From assembly GCA_015228935.1 (NCBI GenBank), contig JADGCO010000032.1, positions 1 through 42,982 on the forward strand: a stretch of 42,982 nucleotides of DNA, read 5' to 3'. Under the pieces are notes generated by a model. The model was not told where the DNA came from. It saw only the letters and a program-made list of their open reading frames with translations, and did no database searches. Numbering within the stretch: the stretch's first letter is position 1; each line of letters starts with the position of its first letter. The position numbers were made by a program, and so were the translations under genes. Below are positions 23,284-39,382 of the stretch, one piece after another. The DNA comes from Magnetococcales bacterium. GTDB taxonomy: Bacteria; Pseudomonadota; Magnetococcia; Magnetococcales; DC0425bin3.

Positions 23284-24324
23284 TTATGGAAGCTTCATGT
23301 TTTCTGCCAGAACACGGGCCATAAGCCTGTATCCTTCCTGACTGAGATGGGTGTCGTTTGGACGATACAGATCCATGATTTCCGGCAATAAACCCCGAAA
23401 ATAAGTCAACAGATTGACCGCTGACAAACCCGCCGTGAACGTTTCCTGGAATACATCGAATACTTCCGGCAAGGGAGCGCCATTTTCCATATACTGTTTA
23501 TAGACATTTGATTTGTCTGGCACCACGACCAAAACAAACTCAATATTTTTGGCACGAAACTGCGCCTGCAACTGGCGCAGATTGGTAATTGACTGTTGCA
23601 TATCCGAAACACTCCACCTGGATTTGGCGTCGTGTTCATCGAGATGCAACATCCGGTCAGATCGACGATTGGAAAACAAGTCACTTCTCTTGAGTGGAAC
23701 GTTGACAACGATCCCCGACACCAACAGGCTATTGGTCCGGGTCATCCGAATGGTATTTCTGAGCGTATGGTAAAGGTACTGCGGGGAAAGTGAATATACG
23801 CGCCTGTTTTCTGGCAAATCCATCTTTGTCAACAAGGATGTTCTGGAATGGGCCGAATGAACCGGTTGAGGTATAAAAGTCCGACAGGGAATGATCCTGG
23901 AAAAAGTCATGAACTGTCGTTCGATGACCTCCATAATCACTAATTTGACTGTTGCATGCTTTATATTTAACAACCATTGTACCCAATTATCAACACATCC
24001 AGACCTGGTATATTCGTAGGTCTGAATGCTTTTATTCAATATGGCTGACAATTCTGATTGCCAGTATGTATCGATACTGAAAGAATCTCCCAGGACCATA
24101 ATGTCAGATTGCGCTGGTGGATTATAATCATTTATAATAGAAACAGGACGTTGCGATTTATTCAAGCCGAAATCTCTTTCCGCCCAATACCCCATACGGG
24201 TCAAATCTCCTTCAACGGGACCCAGATATAAAGAGACAGGAAAAAATATAAATAACAAACCTGCCACGGTTGAAAAATACCATAACAAGTAGCTCTTGTG
24301 ACTCATTCTGTGCATTATATTCAT
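23284..24324 (-). CDS. SGNH-type acyltransferase partner (AlgJ/AlgX-like)
   Basis: A 346-residue protein with one N-terminal membrane helix (LLWYFSTVAGLLFIFFPVSL) and a periplasmic SGNH-hydrolase-like domain. The nucleophile motif is GDSFS and the Asp/His pair is in NDTHLSQEG near the C-terminus. This is the pattern of AlgJ, AlgX and similar proteins that complete O-acetylation of secreted polysaccharides with an MBOAT partner. The MBOAT gene lies directly upstream on the same strand. The frame extends to 24363 with a TTG, but ATG 24324 looks more likely. A/T-rich codons set this gene and the MBOAT gene apart from the rest of the locus. Confidence 0.78.
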   Translation of the reverse strand: MNIMHRMSHKSYLLWYFSTVAGLLFIFFPVSLYLGPVEGDLTRMGYWAERDFGLNKSQRPVSIINDYNPPAQSDIMVLGDSFSIDTYWQSELSAILNKSIQTYEYTRSGCVDNWVQWLLNIKHATVKLVIMEVIERQFMTFSRIIPCRTFIPQPVHSAHSRTSLLTKMDLPENRRVYSLSPQYLYHTLRNTIRMTRTNSLLVSGIVVNVPLKRSDLFSNRRSDRMLHLDEHDAKSRWSVSDMQQSITNLRQLQAQFRAKNIEFVLVVVPDKSNVYKQYMENGAPLPEVFDVFQETFTAGLSAVNLLTYFRGLLPEIMDLYRPNDTHLSQEGYRLMARVLAENMKLP

Positions 24325-24459
24325 AATTTTATCGGAATCCACTCCAGATATTTCAAAAAGCAAGGAAATTGAGAAAAACAGGTTACAGATATATATTTCT
24401 AAAAAAGCAAATCCATGAAAGAAGAGATTGACAATAAAATATTTTAAAACCGCCGTGAT

Positions 24460-26031
24460 TTAAAATTGATAATACAAAAATTGACTTATTTTATTCAAAC
24501 CGATCAACACATAAAAAAACACAACACCCATGAGAACAGCGTAAAACACATTCGGCGACCATGAAGACCCTGATGTCAAGTTCATTCTGGAACAACGACG
24601 TTCGACCAGGGACATCCATTCCTGGGTGTTGGGCAAGGCGAAGGTAACAAGGCATGCAGCACCTGACAAGAGCAGAAATCCAGAAAAATCACGCAACCCC
24701 GGCACACCGGCAAAGGCACCATCGTATTGAATGGTTGGATGGTGAGAAGACAACATGGACAGCAGGGGATTTAGAACGACGGCCACACCGGGAGGCAGAG
24801 TGATGCCATGAATGCCCACCATGCCTTGCAAGATCACGCTGGCTGAAGTGAGATTGTCAGCCCGAAACAACACCCACGCACAAACCACCGCCAGGAAGGT
24901 CAAACCCGTGGCAACGACACGAGAAAATCCTGAAGGGTCAACGACCGGAAGAATGCCCAGACGTTCCCTGACCCCATGCCAGGCATGATTGATGACCAGA
25001 TAGAGGCCATGCAATCCCCCCCAGGCAACAAAATTCCAACTGGCACCATGCCAAAGTCCCCCCAAGAGCATGGTCAGCATGAGATTGATGTGGCGACGCA
25101 TCCTGCCCTGCCGGTTGCCACCCAGGGGAATATACAGGTAATCCCGCAAAAAATTGGACAGGGTGATGTGCCAGCGTCGCCAGAATTCAATGATATTGAC
25201 CGCCTTGTAAGGCGAGGCAAAATTGATGGGAAGATCCACCCCGAACAGACGGGAAATACCGATGGCCATGTCGGAATATCCTGAAAAATCAAAATAAAGT
25301 TGCAGGGTGAAAGAGATGGCCGCACACCAGGAGGCAATCAACATCGGCTCAAAGCCCCGGTCTGCCGCCTGAAAAACCGGCGTGACATAGCTTCCCAGAG
25401 GATCGGCCAGAAAGACCTTCTTCGCCAGACCGATGGTAAAAATCGTCATGCCTGTTGAAATGTTTTCCAATTGCAAACGATAAGTCTTTCTGTCTGCAAA
25501 TTGCGGCATCACCTGTTTGTGATGCAGGACCGGTCCGGCGATCAGGTGTGGAAAATAGACCACAAAAAGGAGATAGTAAATAAAATTGTACTCCCTGGCA
25601 ATGCCACGATACACATCAACCAGAAAGGCTGTCTGTGTAAAAGTGAAAAAAGAGATCCCAAGTGGCAGGATGACATGTGCAAAGGGTATCTGCCATCCCG
25701 TGACACTGTTCAGGGTATCGATAAAAAAATTGACATATTTAAAATAACACAGAATGACAATATTGAAACTGATTGACCCTGCCAGAAATGTTTTTTTCCA
25801 TTTGCTTTTATTTTCGACGGCAGATGACAGAATTTTTGCAAAATAAAAATTGGCTATGATTGAAAAAAGCAGAAGAATAACAAAGGAGGCATTCCACCAC
25901 CCATAAAAAAACAGCGAAACCAACCCAAGCCAAAGTACCGCCATCGATTGGGAATATTTTCCTGCCAAATAGAATCCAAAGAACGCAACGGGGAGAAAAA
26001 GAAAAATGAAACCGAACGAGTTGAAAAGCAC
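24460..26031 (-). CDS. MBOAT-family O-acyltransferase (AlgI-like)
   Basis: A polytopic inner-membrane enzyme of 523 residues that would move an acyl (usually acetyl) group across the membrane for polysaccharide modification. GTG 26031 is chosen because the protein then begins LFNSFGFIFLFLPV, the standard AlgI/DltB start, with GGGAG upstream. The invariant MBOAT histidine is in LLGGLWHGASWNFVAWGGLHG. Other AlgI marks are FFDFSGYSDMAIG-like (here LYFDFSGYSDMAIGISRLFG) and WRRWHITLSNFLRDYLYIPL. About 10-12 membrane helices. Its SGNH partner is the next gene. Confidence 0.93.
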   Translation of the reverse strand: MLFNSFGFIFLFLPVAFFGFYLAGKYSQSMAVLWLGLVSLFFYGWWNASFVILLLFSIIANFYFAKILSSAVENKSKWKKTFLAGSISFNIVILCYFKYVNFFIDTLNSVTGWQIPFAHVILPLGISFFTFTQTAFLVDVYRGIAREYNFIYYLLFVVYFPHLIAGPVLHHKQVMPQFADRKTYRLQLENISTGMTIFTIGLAKKVFLADPLGSYVTPVFQAADRGFEPMLIASWCAAISFTLQLYFDFSGYSDMAIGISRLFGVDLPINFASPYKAVNIIEFWRRWHITLSNFLRDYLYIPLGGNRQGRMRRHINLMLTMLLGGLWHGASWNFVAWGGLHGLYLVINHAWHGVRERLGILPVVDPSGFSRVVATGLTFLAVVCAWVLFRADNLTSASVILQGMVGIHGITLPPGVAVVLNPLLSMLSSHHPTIQYDGAFAGVPGLRDFSGFLLLSGAACLVTFALPNTQEWMSLVERRCSRMNLTSGSSWSPNVFYAVLMGVVFFYVLIGLNKISQFLYYQF

Positions 26032-26149
26032 CGAGTCATACTCCCAGGAACCCGTCAATCCACCCCAATGGTCTTTGCCTTCATCTATTTGTTGACCGGT
26101 CGATGCTACGTCAACCTGGCATGGAAATCAAGGCAACAAGGCAAACAAG

Positions 26150-26199
26150 AGAGTCAGGGTGACTGATCTGCCGAAGAGTCAGGGTGGCTGATCTGCCGA
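26150..26199 (+). repeat. 25-bp direct duplication at a gene end
   Basis: Two 25-base copies (26150-26174 and 26175-26199), each starting AGAGTCAGGGTG and ending CTGATCTGCCGA, differ at one base. The second copy contains the stop codon of the membrane-protein gene that ends at 26179. Confidence 0.85.
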
Positions 26200-28002
26200 G
26201 ATCTTCTGCACCGATGTCTGCAAACCTGACCCATGGAGAGTCCACAAGGACGATTCATCTATTTTTTTGAAATGAGAAGCGATTTTCGCCGCATATCTCT
26301 CCCGGATACCGGCAGAGAAACCGTCATGCCATTTTGGAATCATCAAGAGATCCACATCGTCGAGAGACTTGTGCAAATTTGGCCGGGTGGTCTGTCGCAA
26401 CTGGCCATCGTCCCACAGCAGAATCATATAGAAGAATGTTCCCCAACGGGGAGGCGGCAGACGCAAGGCAAACGGAAACGAATTGTGAAAGTCCAACGCC
26501 AAAATACGGCTGGTTGGCGTGATGTGTTTTTTCAGCAACGCCAAACCATCACGGACGGTGGCAGCATAATCATATTCGTTCGATGCCTGTGTGTAGGATT
26601 TTTTGGGGAGCAGCAGCGTTGCAAAGGATTCTGTCTGTATTCTGGCCATTGCCGGTTGCTTTGCGGCCTCATGAGTATGCCAGTTGAAGGCGTAGACAAT
26701 ACCCAGAATGTTGGGCAACAAAAATATTCTTGCAATAAAATACGTCCCGAAGCCAATGGCCAACAGGTGGGGAAATACTTTTATCTGCTGTTGATCCCGG
26801 GTCAAGGATAAGCAATCCCGCCGCAAGAGTTCCCATGTCATGAGCGTGGCCACGCCAACAAGAGGCAGTGTCCTTGCTTTGATGGACAGCTCACCGGTGA
26901 TGAAACTGTACATGTCAACCATGGAAGCCACAAAACAATCCACGCCAGCCACCAGAAAAATTGCCAGGGCAAGCCGGATTTTTTCTTTGCCCAACTGATG
27001 CAAGACAAATTTCCGTGGAGTACCAGATTGACCCATGAGAAGCATGAACAGTAAAACAACAAACCAGTCGAAATTATGCACAAAAATCTTGATTGTTGTA
27101 CCCAACACGAGACCGGTTGACTGGCTGCTGCCCATGACAGCCTTCAGGTCCAGGAGGTATTGATCCAGGCGCATCCCCAACAGCAGCCAAGCCAAAGCCC
27201 AGAAGATGAGAAACGCTGCCAACAGCGTCAAAGGGGCCATATGGCGGAATCCGAAGAGAATCATGCCTCCCAGCACCAGAACGAAACCACCCAACATGAA
27301 ATTGAGTTTGATGGACATGAGGATCGCCAACAGCGTCCCGACTGAGATGGCCATCAGATGCCTGCCGGCGGGCGTGACGGGAGTGGTCAGAGGGACCATG
27401 ACCTGAATGGCCAGCAGGCACAAAAACGACCAGCCGAACCAGTTGTATTGCCCAACATAGGAAGTATGTTTGAACGAGGGTTCCCCAGGCACCAATACGG
27501 CCAGGGCTGCCATCAGCACGAGCCATACAAAAACCAGGGTCGCCAGGGCAGAAAAACGCCGACTGGCAAGGATCCAGCCCCAAAGGCCAGAAACTCCCGC
27601 CACGATCACAGCCGCAACCGGAAGAGCTGACACCGAGTCATGGGTCAGCCACATGCCCAGGGCCAACAAACCGCCATAGAGGCCACCTTGATAAGAAAAA
27701 TAATCACCGTGTGGTATTTGTCCATTGCGGATGCGCCAGCCTTCATCGAGAAAGACAGCGACCTCGTGAAATGAACGCCATTGGACGGCGGGTCCCATAC
27801 TCAAGACGATGTATCCCAGAATACCCCCGGAGAGGAGCAACAAAAACAGCCCAAGCAGGTGTGCCCCACGGCCATCTGCATGGCAGACCCGCAAAGCGTG
27901 CGCACACCAGCCAGGAGCAACACCGGAGGTGTCGCTGCCAGGAACCAGACAATCCCCCTCCACGGTTGCGGATTCATGAGGTGTCACGAATAATCCCCTC
28001 AT
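26179..28002 (-). CDS. Polytopic membrane protein, GT-C-like
   Basis: A 607-residue protein with roughly ten membrane helices between residues 45 and 440 and a soluble C-terminal part. Early in the chain, AVFLDEGWRIRNGQIPHGDY follows the first helix. An acidic, aromatic loop after helix 1 is where lipid-carrier-dependent GT-C glycosyltransferases keep their catalytic Asp/Glu. No named family is certain. The role could be sugar transfer from a polyprenyl-phosphate donor in the periplasm. The ATG overlaps the stop of the upstream gene by 4 bases, so it belongs to the same operon. The last residues come from a 25-bp duplication. Confidence 0.65.
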   Translation of the reverse strand: MRGLFVTPHESATVEGDCLVPGSDTSGVAPGWCAHALRVCHADGRGAHLLGLFLLLLSGGILGYIVLSMGPAVQWRSFHEVAVFLDEGWRIRNGQIPHGDYFSYQGGLYGGLLALGMWLTHDSVSALPVAAVIVAGVSGLWGWILASRRFSALATLVFVWLVLMAALAVLVPGEPSFKHTSYVGQYNWFGWSFLCLLAIQVMVPLTTPVTPAGRHLMAISVGTLLAILMSIKLNFMLGGFVLVLGGMILFGFRHMAPLTLLAAFLIFWALAWLLLGMRLDQYLLDLKAVMGSSQSTGLVLGTTIKIFVHNFDWFVVLLFMLLMGQSGTPRKFVLHQLGKEKIRLALAIFLVAGVDCFVASMVDMYSFITGELSIKARTLPLVGVATLMTWELLRRDCLSLTRDQQQIKVFPHLLAIGFGTYFIARIFLLPNILGIVYAFNWHTHEAAKQPAMARIQTESFATLLLPKKSYTQASNEYDYAATVRDGLALLKKHITPTSRILALDFHNSFPFALRLPPPRWGTFFYMILLWDDGQLRQTTRPNLHKSLDDVDLLMIPKWHDGFSAGIRERYAAKIASHFKKIDESSLWTLHGSGLQTSVQKISADQPP

Positions 28003-29414
28003 TCGTCTTTCAAAGTCGGCCTCGGTCGGCTGACCAGATGGGTGCTACCCTGCCCCTGGGAAACAGGGAGCGTGACTTGTTGACCGGGCCAAAGCTCAAG
28101 GGAATGCGGGCCGGCAGCACCACCGTGGTCGTAAAGGCGCACGACAGCCCGCTCGCCAAGACGCAGACCGGACCAGATCAAACCGGACTCCTGTGGACCT
28201 GGATAGGCGTAGTTCAACACTTCACCCCGATCGAGAAACTCCTTGTGGGCCAGCATTTCATCGTAGATGCGGGTGGCATCGACCACCTCGGCAATGGCCA
28301 TGTCACGAAAACCGGCATGCACGGGGTTGAATACCTGCATGGCATCCACTCCCCGCAACCACAAGTGCCGCAGGGCTTCTCGATAGGCTTCCCGGCTCAT
28401 GACCGGAATTTTTTGTTTGGGATGATCCGGAACCCAGCGCGCCACCCAGGGAATGACTTGCAGATACGGGGCTTGCCGCTGCACATTCCAGCCATTGTCG
28501 GACACCTGCCGCAACAGGACATTCATGAACAAACGGTCCACATGTTCCTGATCCCAGGGATTGTCTTTGCGCCAACCACTGAGAAAAGCGGTATCGATGG
28601 CATAGGCCACCGGAGTGGTCGCCGTAAAGAGCGTGGGTCCCAGGGGGGGGTGAGGTTGATCATACCAGTCGAGAACGGGCCGCTCCGGCGAGGAGAGGGT
28701 GATCACCCAATTGGTGATGGAAGCCTGGGGATAGTACTCCCGCAACGGGGCCGCAACGTAAGCCGACATCAGTTGCACCCAGAACTGGCGACGAAAACGC
28801 AAAAAAGCCTCCCGGGTGGCCCAGGCATCCGGAGGCAACAGGCGACGAAACTCGGGGGTGTTTTTGACCATATCATAGGCAGCCATGCTCGGCTGTCCTT
28901 CAAAATCAAGCCAAAACCCGTCGATTTTCACTCCCGCCTGACGGAAAGCCTCCAGGGTGGTACGAAATTCCTTGGCGGCACGCGCCCACCCACTCAGGTC
29001 ACCTGGTGAAAATCGGTCTTTTTGACCCTCTGTTGCCTCATACGGCCAGATTCCGCCCCGGGCTTCCAGAACAATGACCGGGGACCCGGCCTGTTGCAAG
29101 GCACGAGCGGCAGGAATTTGCCGGGTATTCAAACGGATGGTCCTGGTCACTCCCCGTTCGAGCAGCATGCGGACGGCCTCTTCCGGCAGCGGCTCATGGC
29201 CACCGGACTCCCAGAGAATCATGGGCAACCGATCCCCCCGAGGATGGGTCAGAGGCGGAATCTCTTCCCGGATGATCCGAATCCAATCCACAGGCACGGC
29301 AGACCCGGATGTCGGCTCAGGAATGAACGGCTTTTCCCCGGCTATGCCCTCCACCGGAGACAAGGCAAGACTCAGCAGAAAATAAACCAACCGCCACCCG
29401 GCACGCGCAATCAC
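27999..29414 (-). CDS. Exported protein, possible polysaccharide-active (beta/alpha)8 enzyme
   Basis: A 471-residue protein with an N-terminal signal-like helix (LVYFLLSLALSPVEGIAG). The fold cannot be fixed by eye. Alternating short hydrophobic strands and helices, and an acidic strand end KIDGFWLDFEGQP near residue 165, look like a TIM-barrel glycoside hydrolase with Asp/Glu at strand ends. The last 60 residues (ERAVVRLYDHGG, then QQVTLPVSQGQ) resemble a small beta-sandwich found at the end of such enzymes. Position among export and polymerisation genes fits a periplasmic polymer-trimming hydrolase or lyase. Function is inferred, and I recognise no named family. Confidence 0.55.
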   Translation of the reverse strand: MIARAGWRLVYFLLSLALSPVEGIAGEKPFIPEPTSGSAVPVDWIRIIREEIPPLTHPRGDRLPMILWESGGHEPLPEEAVRMLLERGVTRTIRLNTRQIPAARALQQAGSPVIVLEARGGIWPYEATEGQKDRFSPGDLSGWARAAKEFRTTLEAFRQAGVKIDGFWLDFEGQPSMAAYDMVKNTPEFRRLLPPDAWATREAFLRFRRQFWVQLMSAYVAAPLREYYPQASITNWVITLSSPERPVLDWYDQPHPPLGPTLFTATTPVAYAIDTAFLSGWRKDNPWDQEHVDRLFMNVLLRQVSDNGWNVQRQAPYLQVIPWVARWVPDHPKQKIPVMSREAYREALRHLWLRGVDAMQVFNPVHAGFRDMAIAEVVDATRIYDEMLAHKEFLDRGEVLNYAYPGPQESGLIWSGLRLGERAVVRLYDHGGAAGPHSLELWPGQQVTLPVSQGQGSTHLVSRPRPTLKDE

Positions 29415-29435: not shown

Positions 29436-31880
29436 TCAACTGGGACTGGCTGTTTCCTTGTCATCCGGTTTCGTTTTCGGCTTCTCCTCCTCTTTTTGCT
29501 CTTTCTGCTCTTGTTTCTCCTCTTTGGCTTCCTCTTTTATTTTTTCTTCCTCTTTGTTACCCAGCTTTTCTTCAGCAGGTTCTTTTTTGGCATCGTCTTT
29601 TTTGGCATCGTCTTTCTTGGCATCGTCTTTCTTGGCGTCGTCTTTCTTGGCGTCCTGTTTCTGGTCGGTCTTCGTCTTGTCATCCGTTCTTTGCTGTTCG
29701 GCCTTGGGAATGACATCCTGAACCTGTTTGGTCGCCTTCTGGGATTCTGCTGCATCCCGGGTGGCTTGCTGCGCCGTGGTCACGGCAGCTTCTTTCGCCA
29801 CGGAAGCCTGCTGCAATACCGTATTCACCTGCTGCTGGGAAACGTTTTTCATGCCCGTTTCAATACTGGCCACGGTCGTCTTGGCACCCGCTGCTGTCGA
29901 GGCTTTGACCATTTCACGTTCAGAGACAGGAACCAACTGCATGAGAACAGATGCCACCTCGGCTGCTTTTGTATTGGCAACACTGCCAACAGCCTGTCCC
30001 ACCTCTTTGGCACTGTTGGCTCCGGCGACCTGGACAACCCCGGCCGCCACTGCCGATGCGGATTGACTCCCCACCTTTTGGGTGACAGCGGCGGCCACTG
30101 CCGCCGACACCGACGTGTCATTCTTTCCGATCACCTGGGCCACTGCGGCAGCCACGGCAACGGCCTGGGCATTTGTTGACGTGTTGTTCACAACCGCAGC
30201 GGCAACCTTGGATGCCTCACTTTTATTCACGACCTGAACAATGGCGGCAGCGACCTGGGGTGCGGCATTGGCGGGCAAGACAGCCGCCATGGCGGACGCT
30301 ATCTGGGAAGCCTGTTGGGGAGATGCCGATGCGGCAGCCGCAGCAACACTTCCGGTTGCCTTGGCCGCTTCCGTGGCTGGCAAACCCTTCACAGCCGCCG
30401 ATGCCGCCTCAGCCGCAACCGTCGGGTCGCTCTTGGCCGCTGCCGCTGTAATCACAGTGGCTGCCTCGGCATTGTTTGTAATTCCCTGTGCCGAAAGTGA
30501 ACTCGTCACGATGACGGAAACGATGCTGGTTCCTGCCGTGGCTTTGTCAACCGCAGCCACGGCTGCGGCAACGACTTTCGCCACTTCTGCGGGATTGACG
30601 GCCACCTGGGCCGAACCGCTGATCACCTGTTGCGTGCCTGCGGTGGATGTGGTCTGGTTGTTCGCCTGTTGCTGGGTATTGCTCTGTTGCAAGGCAGCGG
30701 CAGCCCCTGGATTGGTCGCATTGACCTTGGCAATGAAATCCTTTTGAGCCGGGGTCATGTTGGCCGGACTGACCCCCAGAACGCCCATCTTTTGCGCCTC
30801 GACCAGGATTGTCACGGCTGCGGCCACTTCGTCCAGATTGGCCGCAGCCGCTTCCCGGATGAAGGACACGCTGTTGGCAATGGCCCTCTGCCAGAGACCT
30901 ACCTTTTCCTCAAGATCACGCAACCACTGGGAGAGGTCTCCCGGCTTGGGGGCACCGAGAATTTCATCGACGGCTTCATGACCTTTGCCTGCCCCCGATT
31001 TTTGTCCTTTTTTATCCAGACCCGTTTTGGCTGGACCTGATTTTGGGATTTCCCTGGTTCCGGTTGCCGGTTTTGCTGCAACCGGCGTCCCACCCTGTTC
31101 GACAAAACCCAGCCTGTTGACCTGGGCATCGGCCAGAATTTGTTCCTTGGTCAGCGGCCTCGCCTTGGGAAGACCGACTCCGACCTCTTTCTGGATGTGC
31201 TTGACGGCCTGGAGAGCCATGGCCGGAGTGATGATTTTCGGGTCGGCTGGAGGTTTGGCCACATCGAACGCCGCACTGGACTGGCCCTGCTGCACCTTGA
31301 CCTCCCCTTTTTGGGTTTTCAGGGCAACCTCGCCATTGGCCACATTGATGAAATCCGGAACGCCTTGCGCGACCACCCCCTCCACCGCCGAACCACGCAC
31401 CCCCATGGTCGCGGTCGTGGTATCGATACGCACATTGGAATCCTTGACGGCAAATCCCGAGAGATACCGAAAGGCCCCGCTGACCACCTGCACAGATTTT
31501 TCTGCCCGGCTCTCTGCCGGGTTGAAGGCAAATTGATTCAGGACGATCTGACTGTCCGGACCTATGGAAAAAGTCGAGCCATCCCGGAACTGGATCACGG
31601 CCCGGGAGCCGGGACCAGTGATGATTTTTTGGCGGGGATAAACCGCATCATTGACAGCGATGGGTACCGGCTGGGCTTTCCCGTCCTGGCCCTTGACATC
31701 TTTTTCCACCTCGATGACCCGCCCCAGGTGCAACCTTTTGCCCGGTCCCGTTCCACCCGGACCGGGTTGCCCGGTCGCGCCTGTCCCCGGAGAGGTCTGG
31801 TCGGCGGCCAAAACATCCCCGCCGGCAAAGAGATGCACGGCAACCAACCCCGGCAACACGATCAATCCACACTTTTTCAT
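29436..31880 (-). CDS. FecR-domain protein with Ala-rich repeats and charged tail
   Basis: An 814-residue exported protein. ATG 31880 gives a signal peptide (MKKCGLIVLPGLVAVHLFAG, cut near LAAD); the frame to 31940 is longer but not leader-like. Residues about 50-200 form a FecR/DUF domain (VIQFRDGSTFSIGPDSQIVL, then TATMGVRGSAVEG). From about 400 to 690 it is Ala/Val-rich, in imperfect units of roughly 30-35 residues (AAAIVQVVNKSEASKVAAA). These look like amphipathic helices of a rod or solenoid. The end is four KKDDA repeats and a long Lys/Glu/Asp tail. No transmembrane anchor follows the signal peptide. Lying inside the polysaccharide operon, it could be a surface or periplasmic scaffold. 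This is not a FecR sigma regulator in the classical sense. Confidence 0.75.
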   Translation of the reverse strand: MKKCGLIVLPGLVAVHLFAGGDVLAADQTSPGTGATGQPGPGGTGPGKRLHLGRVIEVEKDVKGQDGKAQPVPIAVNDAVYPRQKIITGPGSRAVIQFRDGSTFSIGPDSQIVLNQFAFNPAESRAEKSVQVVSGAFRYLSGFAVKDSNVRIDTTTATMGVRGSAVEGVVAQGVPDFINVANGEVALKTQKGEVKVQQGQSSAAFDVAKPPADPKIITPAMALQAVKHIQKEVGVGLPKARPLTKEQILADAQVNRLGFVEQGGTPVAAKPATGTREIPKSGPAKTGLDKKGQKSGAGKGHEAVDEILGAPKPGDLSQWLRDLEEKVGLWQRAIANSVSFIREAAAANLDEVAAAVTILVEAQKMGVLGVSPANMTPAQKDFIAKVNATNPGAAAALQQSNTQQQANNQTTSTAGTQQVISGSAQVAVNPAEVAKVVAAAVAAVDKATAGTSIVSVIVTSSLSAQGITNNAEAATVITAAAAKSDPTVAAEAASAAVKGLPATEAAKATGSVAAAAASASPQQASQIASAMAAVLPANAAPQVAAAIVQVVNKSEASKVAAAVVNNTSTNAQAVAVAAAVAQVIGKNDTSVSAAVAAAVTQKVGSQSASAVAAGVVQVAGANSAKEVGQAVGSVANTKAAEVASVLMQLVPVSEREMVKASTAAGAKTTVASIETGMKNVSQQQVNTVLQQASVAKEAAVTTAQQATRDAAESQKATKQVQDVIPKAEQQRTDDKTKTDQKQDAKKDDAKKDDAKKDDAKKDDAKKEPAEEKLGNKEEEKIKEEAKEEKQEQKEQKEEEKPKTKPDDKETASPS
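29584..29653 (+). repeat. 15-bp tandem repeat encoding KKDDA
   Basis: About four to five 15-base units (TTGGCATCGTCTTTC and one-base variants, plus-strand spelling) encode KKDDA repeats in the tail of the FecR-domain protein. Units differ mainly at silent positions. Confidence 0.9.
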
Positions 31881-31965
31881 GACTGTCACCTGCGTCCCTC
31901 CCCAAAATTCAGAGACCCGCCGTTGTCTACACGCAACCATGCCAAGCCAGGATACAGAAACAGCT

Positions 31966-31991
31966 CGATAATGTTAAGAAGTTTCTTATCG
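31966..31991 (-). promoter_or_regulatory. Dyad element before the FecR-domain gene
   Basis: TAAGAA (31975-31980) and TTCTTA (31983-31988) form a 6-bp dyad with a two-base centre. An outer pair CGATAA/TTATCG (31966-31971, 31986-31991) offers an alternative pairing. It covers the stop codon of the O-antigen ligase-like gene and could be a weak processing or attenuation site. No T-tract follows on the coding strand. Confidence 0.25.
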
Positions 31992-33458
31992 TGACAGTTC
32001 ACTGGGGAACGAAACCGCTTTGTCAGACCGGTTTTTACGGTGATGACCTCCGGGAAAGGCGGCATGGGGTATGATCGATGCCTGCAACCCCATGGCCAAA
32101 AGAATCCAAAAAAAGTAGGCATTGGCTGGAATTTGAAAATTGAAATCCACCAAACCGTGCAGGGAAAGGGAGAGCGTGCCGGCCAGTGAGGCAAACAGGA
32201 TTCCCCGGGCAAAGGGATCCCGGCGACGCAGATAGCGGCGAACCATGGTCCACCAGCAGGAAATAAAAGCAGCACCCAACAAACCAAAACCCAGCAACCC
32301 CTGGGCAGCCAGGATTTCAAGATAATCATTGTGGGCATGGTCGTTGAATTTTTGGATTTTTTCTGTTCGATAAATGGGAAAAATGTATTTGAAGGTGCCG
32401 CTGCCCGCGCCAAATATGGGATAATGCCCAATCATTTCAACAGTCCCGGCATGAACTTCCAAGCGTCCCGACTGCTCCATGAACGAACCCTTGAACCGTT
32501 CTGTCAAAATTCCAATGCCCATTCCCCCTCCGGCAATCAAAGACAATATCAGGATGGGAATAATGAGGCGTTTTTCCCGATTGGATTTTCGGCGCCGAAA
32601 TTGTGCCAGAATGACCACCAACAGGAGAGAAACCAGCAGTGCCATGTTTCCCCCCCGGGACGTGCTTAAAAACAAGGCCAAAAACATGAGAACCAGTAAT
32701 GAAGAGACCACGCCATTGCGGCTGCTGATCTTCTGAAGTGCCCATATCAGGGATTCCCTGAAGCTCCTTTGACTTTCACTGCTGCGCATCCAGCCAAGCA
32801 ACAAGCCAAATCCAAGCGGAATGGCCATCTCCAACAATCCGGCAAAATGATTCCTGTTGACATACGTTCCATGGACGCTCCCCTTGCTTTCAGGAACCCA
32901 CCAGGAAATATCAAAGCCGGTAAAGTACACGAACAACCCGAAAACAGCCTGAAAAATTCCACAAAAAAGAATGGTCCAGGCCAATATGCGCAAACGTTCC
33001 CGGGTTCGCGCCACCACCAACACCAGAAAAGCCGCCAAAAAATAGGTTAAATATTTCAGCCACTCCACCAGGGTGGCCGTTCTGTCAAGGGACACCACAA
33101 ACGATTTGCCTTCAACACCAGTAAAATGGTTTATCTCCACTGTTGCCGGAGAAAATATTGAAAGAATGGACACATGAATGGGAACAACCTGGAGCAACGG
33201 AATCATGACCCAAACAAATAAAAGAAATACCTGGGTGAAATGTTCATGAAAAACTCTCCCGAATGACTTCTTCTCTCCAAGATGAGAAAAAAAGTACAAC
33301 CCGGTTAATAAAAATGTACCCGCCTCCAGAACACTCCAGGCCCAGGGGCGATTGCTGCCCAGGGGCAGAGGTGCCCAAAAAATCAGCAGCAAGAACAGAT
33401 AGAAAATCCATGATTCGAGAGAATCTTTTTTTTCAGACACAACCGAACCAACCTTCAT
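31986..33458 (-). CDS. O-antigen ligase/polymerase family protein (WaaL/Wzy-like)
   Basis: A 490-residue inner-membrane protein with about 11-12 helices and a large periplasmic loop near residues 190-300. The Wzy_C-type signature GTYVNRNHFAGLLEMAIPLG is present, and the loop has Arg/His residues as in Wzy and WaaL. The segment AGSGTFKYIFPIYRTEKIQ followed by NDHAHNDYLEILAAQGLLG is a hallmark of this family. In this locus it is the likely polymerase of the exopolysaccharide repeat unit; transfer to lipid A is less likely given the Wzc/Wza context. The start overlaps the stop of the TPR gene by 4 bases. Confidence 0.9.
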   Translation of the reverse strand: MKVGSVVSEKKDSLESWIFYLFLLLIFWAPLPLGSNRPWAWSVLEAGTFLLTGLYFFSHLGEKKSFGRVFHEHFTQVFLLFVWVMIPLLQVVPIHVSILSIFSPATVEINHFTGVEGKSFVVSLDRTATLVEWLKYLTYFLAAFLVLVVARTRERLRILAWTILFCGIFQAVFGLFVYFTGFDISWWVPESKGSVHGTYVNRNHFAGLLEMAIPLGFGLLLGWMRSSESQRSFRESLIWALQKISSRNGVVSSLLVLMFLALFLSTSRGGNMALLVSLLLVVILAQFRRRKSNREKRLIIPILILSLIAGGGMGIGILTERFKGSFMEQSGRLEVHAGTVEMIGHYPIFGAGSGTFKYIFPIYRTEKIQKFNDHAHNDYLEILAAQGLLGFGLLGAAFISCWWTMVRRYLRRRDPFARGILFASLAGTLSLSLHGLVDFNFQIPANAYFFWILLAMGLQASIIPHAAFPGGHHRKNRSDKAVSFPSELSR

Positions 33459-34201
33459 GGACGTTCTTTCACGATTTCTTTTTCGCCAGAAGACACAATG
33501 CCAAAATATTTATCGAACTCTGCACGAAGCGTGGGCTGAAAGCGCACAAGGGGCAGAATATTGTCTTTTTTTCCATGGCGTTTCACCAATTCGAGAACCT
33601 GATGCGGAGAGTGTCCCATGACACGCAGCGCAACGTTGAGAATGTCGTTTTGCAAACGCTCTTCCAGGGAAGACCACAAGGTGAACCCCAAGCGCACCAC
33701 ATTCAGTTGGACACTGGGTTCCCAGGGTGCAAAAACCATGGCCCGCTCCAGGTGCAAAACCGATTCCGGCCAATGATCCCGCCCCTGGACCATGCGCACC
33801 TGGGCCAGATTGATCCAGGTATATCCCCAGGTGGGCCGCAATCTGGCGGCTGTTTCATAGCTGACCACTGCCTCCTGCAACAAGGCCGATGCCCTGACGG
33901 TGTCTTCCTTGATCTGGCGTGACCATATATATTGCAACTGTCCAAAATGCAACCAGTATTCAGCATTGCCCGGATGCAGTTCCAATGCATGTTTGCCATA
34001 GACAACGGCTTGTTTCCAGACCTTTTCCTTTTCTTCGAGGGATAATTTCGGATCCTGGATCCTGACCAACAATTTTTCCAGGGGTAAAACATAAAATTCT
34101 GCCAACCCCCAACTCCCGGCCCAGTAGGAAAGGAACAGGCACAGACCAAACAAAGCCAGAGGCAACAGGGAGACCCGCCAGACGGACAGATTCGGTTTCA
34201 C
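33455..34201 (-). CDS. TPR-containing membrane-anchored EPS protein
   Basis: A 248-residue protein. An N-terminal helix (SLLPLALFGLCLFLSYWAG) anchors it. The periplasmic part has tetratricopeptide-like helix pairs (GNAEYWLHFGQLQYIW, TWGYTWINLAQVRMVQG). It resembles VpsP-type proteins encoded beside O-antigen polymerase genes in exopolysaccharide clusters. The start is GTG 34201, overlapping the upstream stop (GTGA), and the end overlaps the polymerase gene; the three genes are translationally coupled. Likely role: scaffolding of polymerase and export machinery, inferred from context. Confidence 0.75.
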   Translation of the reverse strand: MKPNLSVWRVSLLPLALFGLCLFLSYWAGSWGLAEFYVLPLEKLLVRIQDPKLSLEEKEKVWKQAVVYGKHALELHPGNAEYWLHFGQLQYIWSRQIKEDTVRASALLQEAVVSYETAARLRPTWGYTWINLAQVRMVQGRDHWPESVLHLERAMVFAPWEPSVQLNVVRLGFTLWSSLEERLQNDILNVALRVMGHSPHQVLELVKRHGKKDNILPLVRFQPTLRAEFDKYFGIVSSGEKEIVKERP

Positions 34202-34947
34202 AGCAAGGCTCCGGGAACGGAGGTCACCATGGCCAGAGCGCGAGAGTGGCCGACAATCCGGATCGCTTCACGGACGCCTTCCTGGAGATTGGGAGAACGC
34301 CTCTGAACGTCGTGTGCATCACTGGCGATGACATGCGCCCACTCTTTTTCCAGTAAAATTCTGGCGCAGCGCCGAACTACCGGTCCAAACTCGCCGGTAA
34401 GCGAACCAGCCGTCAATTGACTGAGACACCCCATCTCCACAAAGGGAGCCATTTTTCCCGGATTGGCCAGGACCGACCCGTTCCGCTCTGGATGGGTCAA
34501 AACGGGAACGTAATTCCGATCCAGCAACCTGCGGATGACCTTGTCACTGCCTGGCGGAATCATATCATGCGGAAATTCCAACAGGAAATAATAGCGCGGC
34601 CCAGTTTTATTCAGGGAAGGCAAGCTGCCATTTTCCGCCAAGGCCAGAAGATTCGGAGAGATGCGGACATCCGCCGCCCAGCGCACATCCAGATCAATCT
34701 GCTGTTGGCGCAAATAACCCTGGAACCAGACGGTTGCCTGTTGAATACGGGCTGGCGCGTTGTCATGGACTCCTGGGTTCATATGGGGCGTGGCCACCAG
34801 GATTTTGGTTCCCGATGCCACCGCGCACTCAGCCATGGCCAGCGATTGCCGGGGACTTTCCGGACCATCGTCCAATGACGGCAGAATATGGCAGTGGATA
34901 TCGATCAATCCTGTCAAAAAATCAGCCTTTGGAGCCGTCTTTGTCAT
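34198..34947 (-). CDS. CpsB/CapC-type PHP tyrosine-protein phosphatase
   Basis: A 249-residue metal-dependent phosphatase of the PHP family, which removes phosphate from the tyrosine tail of Wzc-type kinases. Metal ligands are seen in DIHCHILPSLDDGPE at the start, ATPHMNPG, LTHPERN, and the C-terminal ASDAHD. The open frame extends to 35049 through the wzc tail repeat, but that part is an Ala-Thr-Met frame of the repeat; I take ATG 34947. That start has GGAG almost next to it, so a TTG about 30 bases downstream is an alternative. It overlaps the kinase gene by 26 bases, so kinase and phosphatase are made together. Confidence 0.85.
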   Translation of the reverse strand: MTKTAPKADFLTGLIDIHCHILPSLDDGPESPRQSLAMAECAVASGTKILVATPHMNPGVHDNAPARIQQATVWFQGYLRQQQIDLDVRWAADVRISPNLLALAENGSLPSLNKTGPRYYFLLEFPHDMIPPGSDKVIRRLLDRNYVPVLTHPERNGSVLANPGKMAPFVEMGCLSQLTAGSLTGEFGPVVRRCARILLEKEWAHVIASDAHDVQRRSPNLQEGVREAIRIVGHSRALAMVTSVPGALL

Positions 34948-37483
34948 CTCCGTAGTAACCGTAACCCGTTCCGTAGCCTGTTCCATAGCCATAGCCGTAG
35001 CCATAGCCGTAGCCATAGCCGTAGCCATAGCCGTAGCGGTAGCCGCCACTGTAATACATCAACTGGCGCATATCGACACTGTTGAAGACGCACCCGACGA
35101 CAGAAATCTGTGAATGGTGCAAGCGACGCAGCGCACCCATGACCACGTCACGACCGGCTTTATGGGCCTTCACCACAAAGACGACACCATCGGCCTGTTC
35201 ACCCAGGATTTGTGCATCGGTGACCACCAGGGTGGGCGGCGCATCAATGATGATTCGATCATACTCCTTGCGCAATTCGGTCAACATGTCCCGCCAGCGC
35301 TTGGAAGCCAGGATTTCACTGGGAAATGGGGGTGTCGGTCCGCTGGGCAGGATATGCAAACCGAAGGTCGTTTCCACGACCTCCTTGCGTAAAATTTCCA
35401 TGGAGGTCCGACGGGGATCCACAGCCTGACGCCGGTCAACACCTTGCCGCTGGTCCAATCCATCGCGGCGTTCCACGCCACGCCACTCGGATTCCGAGCC
35501 TTTCTGGCGGCGTTCCACCCCGGAGCGCTGATCCAAACCCGACCGACGCTCCTTATGGGTGCGATGTTCCTGCTGGAGATAACCAGACAGATAGCCAGTC
35601 ACGCCTGCGGAACCGGTGACCGGAAAAATTTCCTTGAGGCGAGGACGCCGCAGATCGGCTTCCAGCAGCAAGACCCGGTCACCAGCCTGATTGAAGGCTT
35701 GGGCCAGGTTGATGGCCACGGTGGTCTTCCCCTCTTCGGGCAACGCGGAAGTCACCATGATGATCTGCATGGGACGATCGATATCCGCAAACAGCAGGCC
35801 GGTGCGCAGACTGCGTACCGCCTCCGAATAGTTGGACTTGGGATGCCTGGACTGCATCTCTTCCGGAGGTGTGGGATCGCGCCGCCGCAAGTGCAACAGG
35901 GGAAGGGTTGCAAACAGGGGCAGGCCGCTCATCATTTCCAGCTCTTCGGGCGTTTTCAAGGTACTGTCGGAAAATTCCAGGAGGAACGCCAGGCCCAGAC
36001 CCGTTACCAATCCCACAAATGTCCACAGCATCAGGGTACGGTTTTTATTGGGCCAGAAGATTCCCCCGGGAGGTCTGGATGACTCCAGAAGACGGGCATT
36101 GGCCGTTTGCATCCCTTCACTGAGACCGGTCTCCTTGAAACGTTTCAAAAACATGTCATAAAGCTGGCGATTGGCGGCCACTTCCCGCTCCAGCTTGTTC
36201 ATCTGGTAGGTTTTTTTCTGGATTTGCTGAACCTGTCCCCGCTGGGATTCCAGTTCTCTTGCCAGACGACTCGCCTGGGCGTCGGCCACGGTGTATTCAT
36301 GTTTGACGATGGCCACCAGACGCTCGACTTCCTGCCTGACCTTGCGATCAATCTCCTCCAGTTCCTTCTGTGTCCGAATGATGCGGGGATGTTTGGGACC
36401 ATAGCGGTCGGAGAGTTCGGTCAGGCTCTGCTCGATTTTGCCTTTTTCTTTTTTCAGCTCAAGAAGCTGTAGACTGTCTGAAAAAGGAAGCTGGGAAATA
36501 TCCCCCTTGTATCCCTTCAACATGCCCGCCAGTCGCTCATATTTGGTCTGGGCCGCCCCGGCCTCTGCACGTACCTGGGCCAACTGGGTATTGATCCCAT
36601 CCATTTGCTGACGGTCCATGCTCTGTGCTGCCTGGGAATCCAGCAAACCCGTTGTTTCCCGGTAGACCTGCAAATCTTTTTCGGATTTTTCCAGGGACTT
36701 GCGCAAATTTTCCAGTCGGCTCATCAACCAATTGGCAGCATGCTGCGTCACCTGGAGTTTGGCTTCCATTTCCTGGTCGATGAAGACCTGGATGATCGTA
36801 TTGGCGACTCGTGCTGCAAGTTTCGGATCTTCAGCCACAAAGTAGACTTTAATGATTTCACTGCGACCAACGGTTCCGACGCTGATCCGTCCCTGGACCA
36901 TATCCACGACCTGTTGCACGCGCTGGGGATCGGGTTTTCCATCGTCCACGACCGGTTCGTCAGAATCTTGACGAACCGGATCTCCTCCCAACAACTGGGA
37001 CAGGGATTCGGGCAACAACGAGCTGAAGGACCAGCCACGCCGTTTGGAAAGCACTCTGGGATCAAACTCGGGCACCAGATCCAGCCGCTCGCGGCGCACC
37101 ACTTCTTCGGCCAATTTTCGATTCTTGATCAGCTCCATCTGGGTCTGCATATACCCGGACTGACCGGCATTGGACTGATAGACATCGTCGAAGGCGATCA
37201 ATTTGACCGTTTTTTGTTCGATGACCATGCTGGCTTCAGCCTGGTACAGGGGTACCAGGGACCACAGGTAGACCTGGGTCGGCATGACGAAGAGAAAAAC
37301 GACGCTGATGATCTGCCACTTTCGTCGCAACATCAGCAGCAGAAAGAAGCGCAACGAATAGCTGGGACCCTCGATCTCGGACGGCCCATGTTCGGCATAG
37401 GGGGCACGCACCTGAGCGGAGGCATGACGCACCCTGCCGGAGTCCAACCCCTCTTCAGCCTTGACAATCGTGGCATCAGCCAT
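34922..37483 (-). CDS. Wzc-like polysaccharide co-polymerase and tyrosine kinase
   Basis: An 853-residue inner-membrane protein that sets chain length and drives export with the Wza-like protein. It has a Wzz domain after the first helix (QIISVVFLFVMPTQVYLWSL), long periplasmic coiled coils, a second helix near residue 490 (LMLWTFVGLVTGLGLAFLL), then the BY-kinase. Walker A is ALPEEGKTTVAINL, A' is VLLLEADLRRP and Walker B is DRIIIDAPP. The C-terminus is a (GY)n tail with about ten tyrosines from a 12-bp repeat. Unusual is an Arg-rich insertion of about 50 residues between A' and B (GVERR, GLDQRQGVDRRQ). It follows the Wza-like gene by 9 bases. Confidence 0.93.
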   Translation of the reverse strand: MADATIVKAEEGLDSGRVRHASAQVRAPYAEHGPSEIEGPSYSLRFFLLLMLRRKWQIISVVFLFVMPTQVYLWSLVPLYQAEASMVIEQKTVKLIAFDDVYQSNAGQSGYMQTQMELIKNRKLAEEVVRRERLDLVPEFDPRVLSKRRGWSFSSLLPESLSQLLGGDPVRQDSDEPVVDDGKPDPQRVQQVVDMVQGRISVGTVGRSEIIKVYFVAEDPKLAARVANTIIQVFIDQEMEAKLQVTQHAANWLMSRLENLRKSLEKSEKDLQVYRETTGLLDSQAAQSMDRQQMDGINTQLAQVRAEAGAAQTKYERLAGMLKGYKGDISQLPFSDSLQLLELKKEKGKIEQSLTELSDRYGPKHPRIIRTQKELEEIDRKVRQEVERLVAIVKHEYTVADAQASRLARELESQRGQVQQIQKKTYQMNKLEREVAANRQLYDMFLKRFKETGLSEGMQTANARLLESSRPPGGIFWPNKNRTLMLWTFVGLVTGLGLAFLLEFSDSTLKTPEELEMMSGLPLFATLPLLHLRRRDPTPPEEMQSRHPKSNYSEAVRSLRTGLLFADIDRPMQIIMVTSALPEEGKTTVAINLAQAFNQAGDRVLLLEADLRRPRLKEIFPVTGSAGVTGYLSGYLQQEHRTHKERRSGLDQRSGVERRQKGSESEWRGVERRDGLDQRQGVDRRQAVDPRRTSMEILRKEVVETTFGLHILPSGPTPPFPSEILASKRWRDMLTELRKEYDRIIIDAPPTLVVTDAQILGEQADGVVFVVKAHKAGRDVVMGALRRLHHSQISVVGCVFNSVDMRQLMYYSGGYRYGYGYGYGYGYGYGYGYGTGYGTGYGYYGDDKDGSKG
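34985..35046 (+). repeat. 12-bp tandem repeat encoding the GYGY tail of the kinase
   Basis: About five 12-base units (AGCCATAGCCGT in plus-strand spelling) encode alternating Gly-Tyr, the phosphorylatable tail of the Wzc-like kinase. Copy-number change would add or remove tyrosines in pairs without shifting the frame. Confidence 0.92.
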
Positions 37484-37492
37484 GCGGAAACC

Positions 37493-38074
37493 TCACCAGA
37501 AACCTTCCGGAACTGTCAATATGTCATCCGGATAGACTGGATCATCCAGGCGTATGCTGAATTCCTTATGGCTGGGATCGTTGCCACGAATGACGGTAAT
37601 TTTCTTGTCGGCGGCCCGCTCGGAAAACCCGCCAGCCAGGGTCACGGCCTTGCGAACCGTCAAGCCGGGCTGGAAGGGAAAGCCACCGGGACTTTTCACT
37701 TCGCCATTGATAAAATACATTCGAAAATCAGTGATGGAAACGTTTACCACGGGATTGCGCAGGTATCCGTCTGCCAGCCGGCTGCGCAACAATTTCTCTA
37801 CGTCCTTGACCGTCAAACCCGATACGGTAACATCTCCCAGAAAGGAGAAGGAGATCTTGCCATTCGGTCCGACCTTGTGCATGCCGGACAGGTCCGGTTC
37901 CTCGTTGACGGAAATCTGGATTTTGTCGCCCGGTCCCAGTCTGTACTGGGATCGCAGATGCGACTCCTCGGCCGCAGACGCAACACCATGAAACAGAAAC
38001 AGGAGCAGTGCCACCATCAGCCAGGAAAAAACCCCCGACCGCCAGCGACACCAGGATCTGCTTTGTTGTCTCAT
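37493..38074 (-). CDS. Wza-like polysaccharide export protein
   Basis: A 193-residue exported protein with a signal peptide (VFSWLMVALLLFLFHGVASA). A poly_export domain starts at about residue 43 (YRLGPGDKIQISVNEEPDLS) and is followed by an SLBB domain (FYINGEV-like FINGEVKSPGGFPFQPGLTV). There is no obvious lipobox Cys and no C-terminal outer-membrane helix. It is therefore a short form that may rely on the beta-barrel gene immediately upstream (38120-39343) for outer-membrane passage. Its partner is the Wzc-like kinase, encoded 9 bases downstream. Confidence 0.92.
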   Translation of the reverse strand: MRQQSRSWCRWRSGVFSWLMVALLLFLFHGVASAAEESHLRSQYRLGPGDKIQISVNEEPDLSGMHKVGPNGKISFSFLGDVTVSGLTVKDVEKLLRSRLADGYLRNPVVNVSITDFRMYFINGEVKSPGGFPFQPGLTVRKAVTLAGGFSERAADKKITVIRGNDPSHKEFSIRLDDPVYPDDILTVPEGFW

Positions 38075-38119: not shown

Positions 38120-39343
38120 TTACAGACCACCGGTCAAGGAGATCATCACTTCATTGCTGTCATATTCCGAATTCGGTTGGTTTGATTTTTGGCTGGTCCG
38201 ACCAAAATTTGAACTCATCGTCAACCAACGGGGGAAAGCATACTCCAACCCAACCCCACCTTTCCAGATTTCATTTTCCAGACCGGAGCTGTAATCATTC
38301 GTGGTATGGTCCAGATTGGATTTGAAGGTCAGGAAGGATCGCAATTTATGGGACAAGCCCACCCCGGCCATGGTTGTCACGTAATAGTCGGCAACCAACC
38401 CACCCTCGGCAAAGGCACGGTTGGCGTTCAGGTTCAATGAGGTTCTGGCAAGCGGCTTCCAGGAAACAGACCCTCCAAAGGTCATCGCACTGCTGTTTTC
38501 CGCTGCTGAATTCTCGGGTTCCTTCAAAGCGTAACCAACTCTCAAGTCACCTTGAGTCTTGGCTGTACCGGTCCAGTTCACGCCAACATTGACGGTCTTC
38601 TCCTGACTGTCTCTTCGCAAGGCAGGATTGTCGTAAACAATGCCCTTCCAACCCAGGCCTGTCGCAAGAGATGTCCGAGGAGCCATGGCAAACATGAGCG
38701 TCAGAGCCGCCTTGTTCCAATAATTGCCAACTTCCTGCTTCTCGTCAATCTGATGTGATAATTCCAGTTGGGTACGGAAACGGTTCTGCGTGTATTGGGC
38801 AGAACCATCGATGCCGTAATGTTTCCAGCGACGCGGCTTATCCTGGGCACCAATCTGACCCACATCGGGCGCACCACGACTCTCGTGATTGAAGGAAACC
38901 TCGGATTTCAAGCCCAGATCCAGATGCCGATTGGCCGAATATTTGACATCCATGGACACATTATGATCTTCAAAATCCTCGGTGGAGCGACTCTCGTAAC
39001 GAACGATGCTGCTGGAGACACCGGCCTGGAAGGCAAGCTTCTTCCAATGCGTGGAAAACTGAACAACTGGTTGGATATTCAGAATTTTCTCACCAACCTT
39101 CTGCCTGCTTTTGAAGACGTTGTCATCATACTGGGAGGAGATGGTCAGCGAGGGTTTCACCCGAAAAATTCCCACCGGAATCCCACGCGCCCCATCCGCC
39201 GCACCCAGGTAGCCAAGCGATCCACACATGGTCAACAAAATGGCAATCACCCCGGCAGCCCACAGCCGAGTTGCAATCGGCAGGCTCTCGGATTGACGGA
39301 ACTCCTCCCCCGTCTCGGGTATGATTGTCCCTGTTCTTGACAT
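38120..39343 (-). CDS. EPS-locus outer-membrane beta-barrel protein
   Basis: A 407-residue protein, first gene of the minus-strand exopolysaccharide locus. A hydrophobic export segment (AAGVIAILLTMCGSLGYLG) follows a hydrophilic start. The mature chain is made of amphipathic strands (LTISSQYDDNVFKSRQ, LDLGLKSEVSFNHESRG) and resembles the BBP2_2/EpsL-VpsM barrels of Wzx/Wzy-type clusters. It may form or support the export channel with the short Wza-like protein. ATG 39343 is preferred; the frame also runs from TTG 39358. Like many OMPs the end is hydrophobic (ISLTGGL), though without a terminal Phe. Confidence 0.8.
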   Translation of the reverse strand: MSRTGTIIPETGEEFRQSESLPIATRLWAAGVIAILLTMCGSLGYLGAADGARGIPVGIFRVKPSLTISSQYDDNVFKSRQKVGEKILNIQPVVQFSTHWKKLAFQAGVSSSIVRYESRSTEDFEDHNVSMDVKYSANRHLDLGLKSEVSFNHESRGAPDVGQIGAQDKPRRWKHYGIDGSAQYTQNRFRTQLELSHQIDEKQEVGNYWNKAALTLMFAMAPRTSLATGLGWKGIVYDNPALRRDSQEKTVNVGVNWTGTAKTQGDLRVGYALKEPENSAAENSSAMTFGGSVSWKPLARTSLNLNANRAFAEGGLVADYYVTTMAGVGLSHKLRSFLTFKSNLDHTTNDYSSGLENEIWKGGVGLEYAFPRWLTMSSNFGRTSQKSNQPNSEYDSNEVMISLTGGL

Positions 39344-39382
39344 GGCTACTTTCGCCAAACCATTGACGAACTTCTGATGAAG

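Follow-up and report, generated by a model that had tools for sequence, protein, structure and literature searches.

FecR-solenoid proteins of the Magnetococcales: an order-restricted family linked to exopolysaccharide loci

Why would an exopolysaccharide (EPS) operon encode an exported protein that carries the domain of FecR-type regulators? We met this question in a Magnetococcales genome, in a stretch of 42,982 nucleotides (contig JADGCO010000032.1, assembly GCA_015228935.1; hereafter the window). The locus matters because it ties an unannotated protein family and a partner gene to the EPS locus of probable magnetotactic cocci. We call the product the FecR-solenoid protein and consider in turn its architecture, its relatives, its neighbors and the role it may play at the cell surface.

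Architecture of the FecR-solenoid protein

The original prediction placed an open reading frame at 29436..31880, and it is present there on the minus strand, which also carries every other feature of the window described below. Coding sequence spans 29439-31880 with the stop codon at 29436-29438, and the ATG at 31880 yields a product of 814 residues. An in-frame GTG at 31889, 9 bases upstream of this ATG, has better ribosome-binding-site spacing to GGGGAGGG. In a start-codon comparison, the relative L025 retains the GTG and lacks the ATG. On these two grounds, the GTG may be the true start of the gene.

The N-terminus reads as a Sec signal (MKK...VLA-AD). Sequence reading and hydropathy place a Sec-type signal peptide at residues 1-25 (MKKCGLIVLPGLVAVHLFAGGDVLA; 31806..31880), in keeping with the predicted export of the chain. 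By the same reading the signal peptide has no lipobox, because Cys4 lies before the hydrophobic stretch, and there is no cysteine within residues 61-814. Membrane spans were sought as 19-residue hydropathy windows above a cut-off of 1.6. Beyond the signal peptide only one marginal window exceeded this value (residues 426-444, 1.65, within the Ala/Val-rich repeats), so the protein has no convincing membrane anchor, as had been claimed.

The FecR domain was correctly foreseen: Pfam matches PF04773 at residues 85-185 (31326..31628) with E=2.7e-10 and 41 bits against a cut-off of 24. Residues 216-429 (30594..31235) form a family-specific linker and helical region which alignment A1 shows to be conserved, along with FecR, across 27 relatives. 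An Ala/Val-rich alpha-solenoid follows at residues 430-655 (29916..30593), as delimited by a periodicity test and AlphaFold2 models, and then long helices at residues 656-735 (29676..29915) in a low-confidence single-sequence model. Sequence and composition define a low-complexity K/D/E/Q tail at residues 736-810 (29451..29675). This tail contains the expected KKDDA repeats, as four units at residues 745-764 (29589-29648). The chain ends in the tetrapeptide ASPS (residues 811-814; 29439..29450), which comparison with relatives identified as conserved.

The original prediction described about 290 residues of Ala-rich repeats with a unit of 30-35 residues. The periodicity holds, although the clear array is shorter (about 225 residues, 430-655) and the unit is 15-16 residues, equivalent to one helix, so that 30-35 residues correspond to a pair. 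Within residues 430-655 the periodic signal has z=4.7 at a lag of 16 and z=4.0 at a lag of 35, and none of 1000 shuffles attained the maximum. Nine relatives, tested over residues 471-720, have significant periods as well, mostly of 15-16 and 30-35 residues and with z up to 18. Structure prediction, which had been proposed as a check on the repeats, gave for residues 410-660 a predicted row of short helices of about 11-18 residues, with pLDDT of about 70-86 over most repeats and pTM 0.63. A longer model agrees over the repeats and is poor in the FecR part (pLDDT <50); both AlphaFold2 folds are single-sequence and used no alignment. Disorder without periodicity had been named as the finding that would count against the prediction; the region is instead periodic and predicted to be folded.

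Compared with PDB folds, the solenoid model had no match with E<0.001 (best E=0.047). The search returned generic repeat proteins (designed, TPR and PUF), and we did not read the TPR and PUF matches as a sign of kinship. PDB sequence matches involved lysine/aspartate-rich linkers only and were set aside as meaningless.

A family with variable tails and a constant end

How widespread is this architecture? We searched with profile A1, which has 21 rows and 411 positions and covers FecR, the linker and the first helices. The profile recovered 27 full-length relatives in 24 of the 48 genomes of the order, with E from 1e-98 to 1e-162, most of these 27 matches being rows of A1 themselves. The window protein, also a row of A1, matches over the full length of the profile with E=4.6e-154. 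No full-length relative turned up in a sample of about 350 genomes from the rest of the phylum. Across all 398 phylum genomes, the order included, the next matches after the family score 1e-28 or weaker and align the FecR part alone. Likewise, plasmids in PLSDB gave FecR-part matches alone, in rhizobia, and a scan of genome contigs gave a single FecR-only match, in a Gallionellaceae MAG. No paper on such proteins was found in the open-access literature. By these sequence comparisons, the FecR-solenoid proteins are an undescribed family, restricted to the order among the genomes sampled. Since its full-length members recur in half of the order's sampled genomes, the family is not a one-genome oddity, and the combination of parts that had been called unusual is, within the order, a conserved one.

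The relatives range from 760 to 2605 residues, and their C-terminal half varies strongly in length and composition. The FecR domain and its flanking region keep 75% identity within the genus and 60% within the family. A tree of the conserved region separates three types, distinguished by tree, architecture and neighborhood, and these labels cluster on it (0 of 500 shuffles scored as low). The EPS type (a) has 12 tree rows, including the window protein, and the GGDA-repeat type (b) has 9; the secretin-neighbor type (c), marked by a cadherin-like or other C-terminal module, has 6 rows that are not with certainty one clade. In five loci of type (c) (L029, L033, L034, L038 and L042) a secretin-cluster gene adjoins; most of these loci also encode a TPR protein and three of them an AAA ATPase, a neighborhood that recalls an MSHA-like pilus or secretion set. 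The sixth, L077, was assigned from its C-terminus alone. Among the three type (c) members scanned, Pfam detected cadherin domains in L029 and L034 and FecR alone in L033.

Two further observations concern individual loci. The EPS-clade gene of L076 (8889-11019) is split into two frames of 622 and 284 residues, the second of which ends in ASPS; the split is either a MAG frameshift or a pseudogene. Large TPR-CHAT proteins lie near GGDA-type genes and one EPS-type gene, recognized by Pfam in L036 (1294 aa) and L031 (1451 aa) and by similarity in L035.

The tail is the least conserved segment besides the signal peptide: between the window protein and L026, a member of the same genus, FecR is 75% identical, the repeat part 59% and the tail 28%. 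The window protein's tail is lysine-rich with a net charge of -4. In its place L026 has a poly-Q stretch some 48 residues long, L030 of the same family has a tail with net charge -37, and the tail of L031 is Q-rich. In L025 a poly-Q stretch runs into masked N at the end of the FecR gene, where L026 has its consecutive Q. Thus, across the sequences compared, tail charge is not conserved among relatives. The suggestion that the tail binds an acidic polymer is therefore unsupported, and we reject a polycationic mode of binding in view of the net charge here and the poly-Q and polyacidic substitutes in close relatives.

The last residues behave differently from the rest of the tail. Fifteen of 18 intact members of the EPS and GGDA types have SPS as their last three residues, with A, P or G before it; the remaining three, all from family f11, end in ASGN, ASAS and ASGS. 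The codons used at the SPS end are mixed (AGT, AGC, TCC, TCT, TCG, TCA), which argues that selection acts on the protein. None of 244 neighboring ORFs has such an SPS end. Secretin-type members end in LTP in four of six cases, and in LAP and VTK in the other two. A genome-wide pattern search for ASPS-ending genes gave 131/159 against 129/132 for the control, a result close to the control. As judged from sequence, the [A/P/G]SPS end is kept across otherwise unrelated tails of the EPS and GGDA types. Speculatively, and at rather long odds, the C-terminal [A/P]SPS could be an undescribed sorting or recognition tag, read by an order-specific factor so that FecR-solenoid proteins are released, exported or attached where the EPS leaves the cell. 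A conserved tetrapeptide on divergent tails is a concrete lead to a possible new type of C-terminal signal.

The polysaccharide locus and a partner gene

The EPS operon lies at higher coordinates than the FecR gene. It comprises an O-antigen ligase/polymerase-like gene (Wzy_C, Pfam; 31986..33458), a VpsP-like polysaccharide gene (33455..34201; NF038257, score 73 against a curated cut-off of 125), a CpsB/CapC phosphatase (Pfam; 34198..35049), a Wzc-type chain-length tyrosine kinase (34922..37483), an EpsE/Wza-type polysaccharide export protein (37493..38074) and an EpsL-like outer-membrane barrel (BBP2_2; 38120..39358), the last three recognized by both Pfam and NCBIfam. In the other direction, beyond the partner gene described below, lie a 607-residue multi-span membrane protein with no family matched (26179..28002; ORF and Pfam), an MBOAT O-acyltransferase (24460..26058; Pfam) and an AlgX-like SGNH acetyltransferase (23284..24363; domain search). 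The MBOAT and AlgX-like pair (23284-26058) adjoins the EPS operon. Because the cluster includes these two genes, its content suggests that the polymer is O-acetylated.

The EPS context noted in the original prediction is borne out in relatives of the same architecture. EPS-type members adjoin epsL/epsE at 11 of 12 loci, in families f1, f2, f8 and f11; the sequence retrieved around the twelfth (L076) contains no eps genes. epsL is present in 25 of the 48 genomes of the order. It occurs in every one of the 20 genomes that encode an EPS- or GGDA-type protein versus 5 of 28 others (Fisher p=3e-9, uncorrected for shared ancestry). For the whole family the figures are 21 of 24 positive versus 4 of 24 negative genomes (p=1.4e-6, again uncorrected for shared ancestry), and the three positive genomes that lack epsL have the secretin type only. 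Some GGDA-type genes share a contig with epsL, at distances of about 11 kb (G026), 15 kb (G034), 24 kb (G015) and 45 kb (G040).

The gene next downstream of the FecR gene encodes an exported protein of 471 residues with no family matched (27999..29414). Relatives of this partner, with 44-70% identity, adjoin the FecR gene or lie within 3 kb of it in nine aligned loci, and in three genomes (G015, G025, G028) the partner is 6-7 kb from epsL. In a 200-genome sample of the phylum, partner relatives are confined to the order, where they occur in 15 of 23 family-positive versus 1 of 13 family-negative genomes (p=0.001). The partner has no significant match in Pfam or the PDB. From a sub-threshold match to the GH31 TIM barrel, our guess is that it may be a TIM-barrel enzyme.

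Possible roles and comparison with known systems

What does the FecR-solenoid protein do? We favor the reading that the family consists of exported scaffold proteins, restricted to the order, that work with the EPS layer or its export, and we give this reading a probability of about 0.55. Sec would carry the protein out of the cytoplasm. The N-terminal FecR domain could then dock on a partner in the envelope, perhaps the EpsL/EpsE exit pore, while the solenoid would provide a spacer or a scaffold, and the tail would be a flexible linker presenting the C-terminal tetrapeptide to a partner. In this way the protein might organize or tether the polymer, probably O-acetylated, at the surface. The original prediction saw the rod as a matrix scaffold; a scaffold of the matrix or envelope is reasonable because of the Sec signal, the predicted folded repeat rod and the link to the EPS locus. 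The protein yielded no match to a carbohydrate-binding domain.

Where would such a scaffold end up? The annotated neighbors include no dedicated exporter for the outer membrane, whether type 1, two-partner or autotransporter, and for this reason the end point may be periplasmic. We nevertheless lean slightly toward a place in the matrix, outside the cell or at its surface, rather than one confined to the periplasm. On Magnetofaba australis IT-1, a magnetotactic coccus, a fibrillar coat resembling a capsule or S-layer has been observed (PMC5088516). That organism belongs to a different genus and no protein was named for its coat, which offers the surface reading a possible physical counterpart, unlinked to the FecR-solenoid protein. 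No protein assigned to the fibrillar coat of magnetotactic cocci was found in the literature searched.

The strongest competitor to a scaffold of the EPS layer is a periplasmic accessory of the EPS export machine, in which FecR would contact EpsE/EpsL or the Wzc complex, with a solenoid that spans the assembly or guides it, and the protein would not be a matrix component. The protein has a Sec signal only and its gene has no exporter for the outer membrane close by, two of the three clades adjoin periplasmic or outer-membrane export genes (EpsE/EpsL or a secretin), and the secretin-type L029 starts with an apparent N-terminal membrane anchor, all of which would suit such an accessory. However, the cadherin domains in two secretin-type relatives are typical of extracellular adhesion, and a C-terminal half that varies so greatly in proteins of 760-2605 residues is unlike that of a machine subunit. 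Moreover, the host genome encodes seven secretins, and type II-like export is therefore possible. On balance we regard the accessory role as a serious but clearly less probable alternative.

It is far less probable that the protein is a low-complexity repeat chain that has no specific function and hitch-hikes in the operon. The repeats and tail drift fast, and the poly-Q and KKDDA runs resemble slippage, but a hitch-hiker would not explain the conservation of FecR and its flank within the genus and the family, the EPS linkage retained in four families or a C-terminus conserved to its final residues. Least probable is a regulatory FecR protein, an anti-sigma factor or signaling relay controlling EPS synthesis: although PF04773 is the domain of FecR-type regulators and the Sinorhizobium meliloti FecR-domain protein SMc02177 belongs to the Clr regulon alongside polysaccharide genes, the S. 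meliloti mutant still produced succinoglycan (PMC5498481), and here the architecture and the neighbors lead us to reject canonical FecR regulation.

With the FecR family the window protein shares the PF04773 domain, above the curated cut-off. Unlike FecIRA-type regulators, it lacks an N-terminal anti-sigma domain (FecR being its only Pfam match) and a convincing transmembrane helix after the signal, and has instead an exported chain with a solenoid and tail. Its annotated neighbors are EPS genes rather than an ECF sigma factor or TonB receptor.

The neighboring EpsL, EpsE and chain-length proteins match models from EpsL/EpsE loci (XrtB, PEP-CTERM-associated), although their scores are well below the curated cut-offs (66 versus 275 for EpsL). 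The window protein differs from PEP-CTERM/exosortase substrates in that it has no PEP-CTERM end, no C-terminal transmembrane helix and no NCBIfam match. VPS-type loci with VpsP offer a further likeness, through the VpsP-like gene of the window operon.

The same genome encodes a giant of 4137 residues (G000:C39; L078 3074-15484) with RTX, FG-GAP and cadherin-like features and an internal FecR-like segment. In this segment lies its likeness to the FecR-solenoid protein. The giant is a probable surface adhesin, whereas the window protein lacks RTX, Ig and FG-GAP repeats as well as a type 1 secretion signature, and its profile describes a separate family set off by a sharp score gap. The absence of an RTX match, and of an ABC/HlyD-type gene among the annotated neighbors, also distinguishes it from RTX/LapA-type adhesins.

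Finally, Vibrio RbmA and Bap1 and Pseudomonas CdrA resemble the FecR-solenoid protein in being exported and EPS-linked, a comparison of how they work only, since Pfam finds no domain in common. The window protein is an alpha-solenoid with a FecR head; RbmA, in contrast, contains fibronectin domains, and CdrA is a beta-helix secreted by a two-partner route. Neither a TPS domain nor a TpsB partner, as in CdrA-type adhesins, was matched by Pfam in the protein or its neighbors. EPS-linked exported proteins are thus known as a kind; what is new here is the combination of folds and the conserved tetrapeptide.
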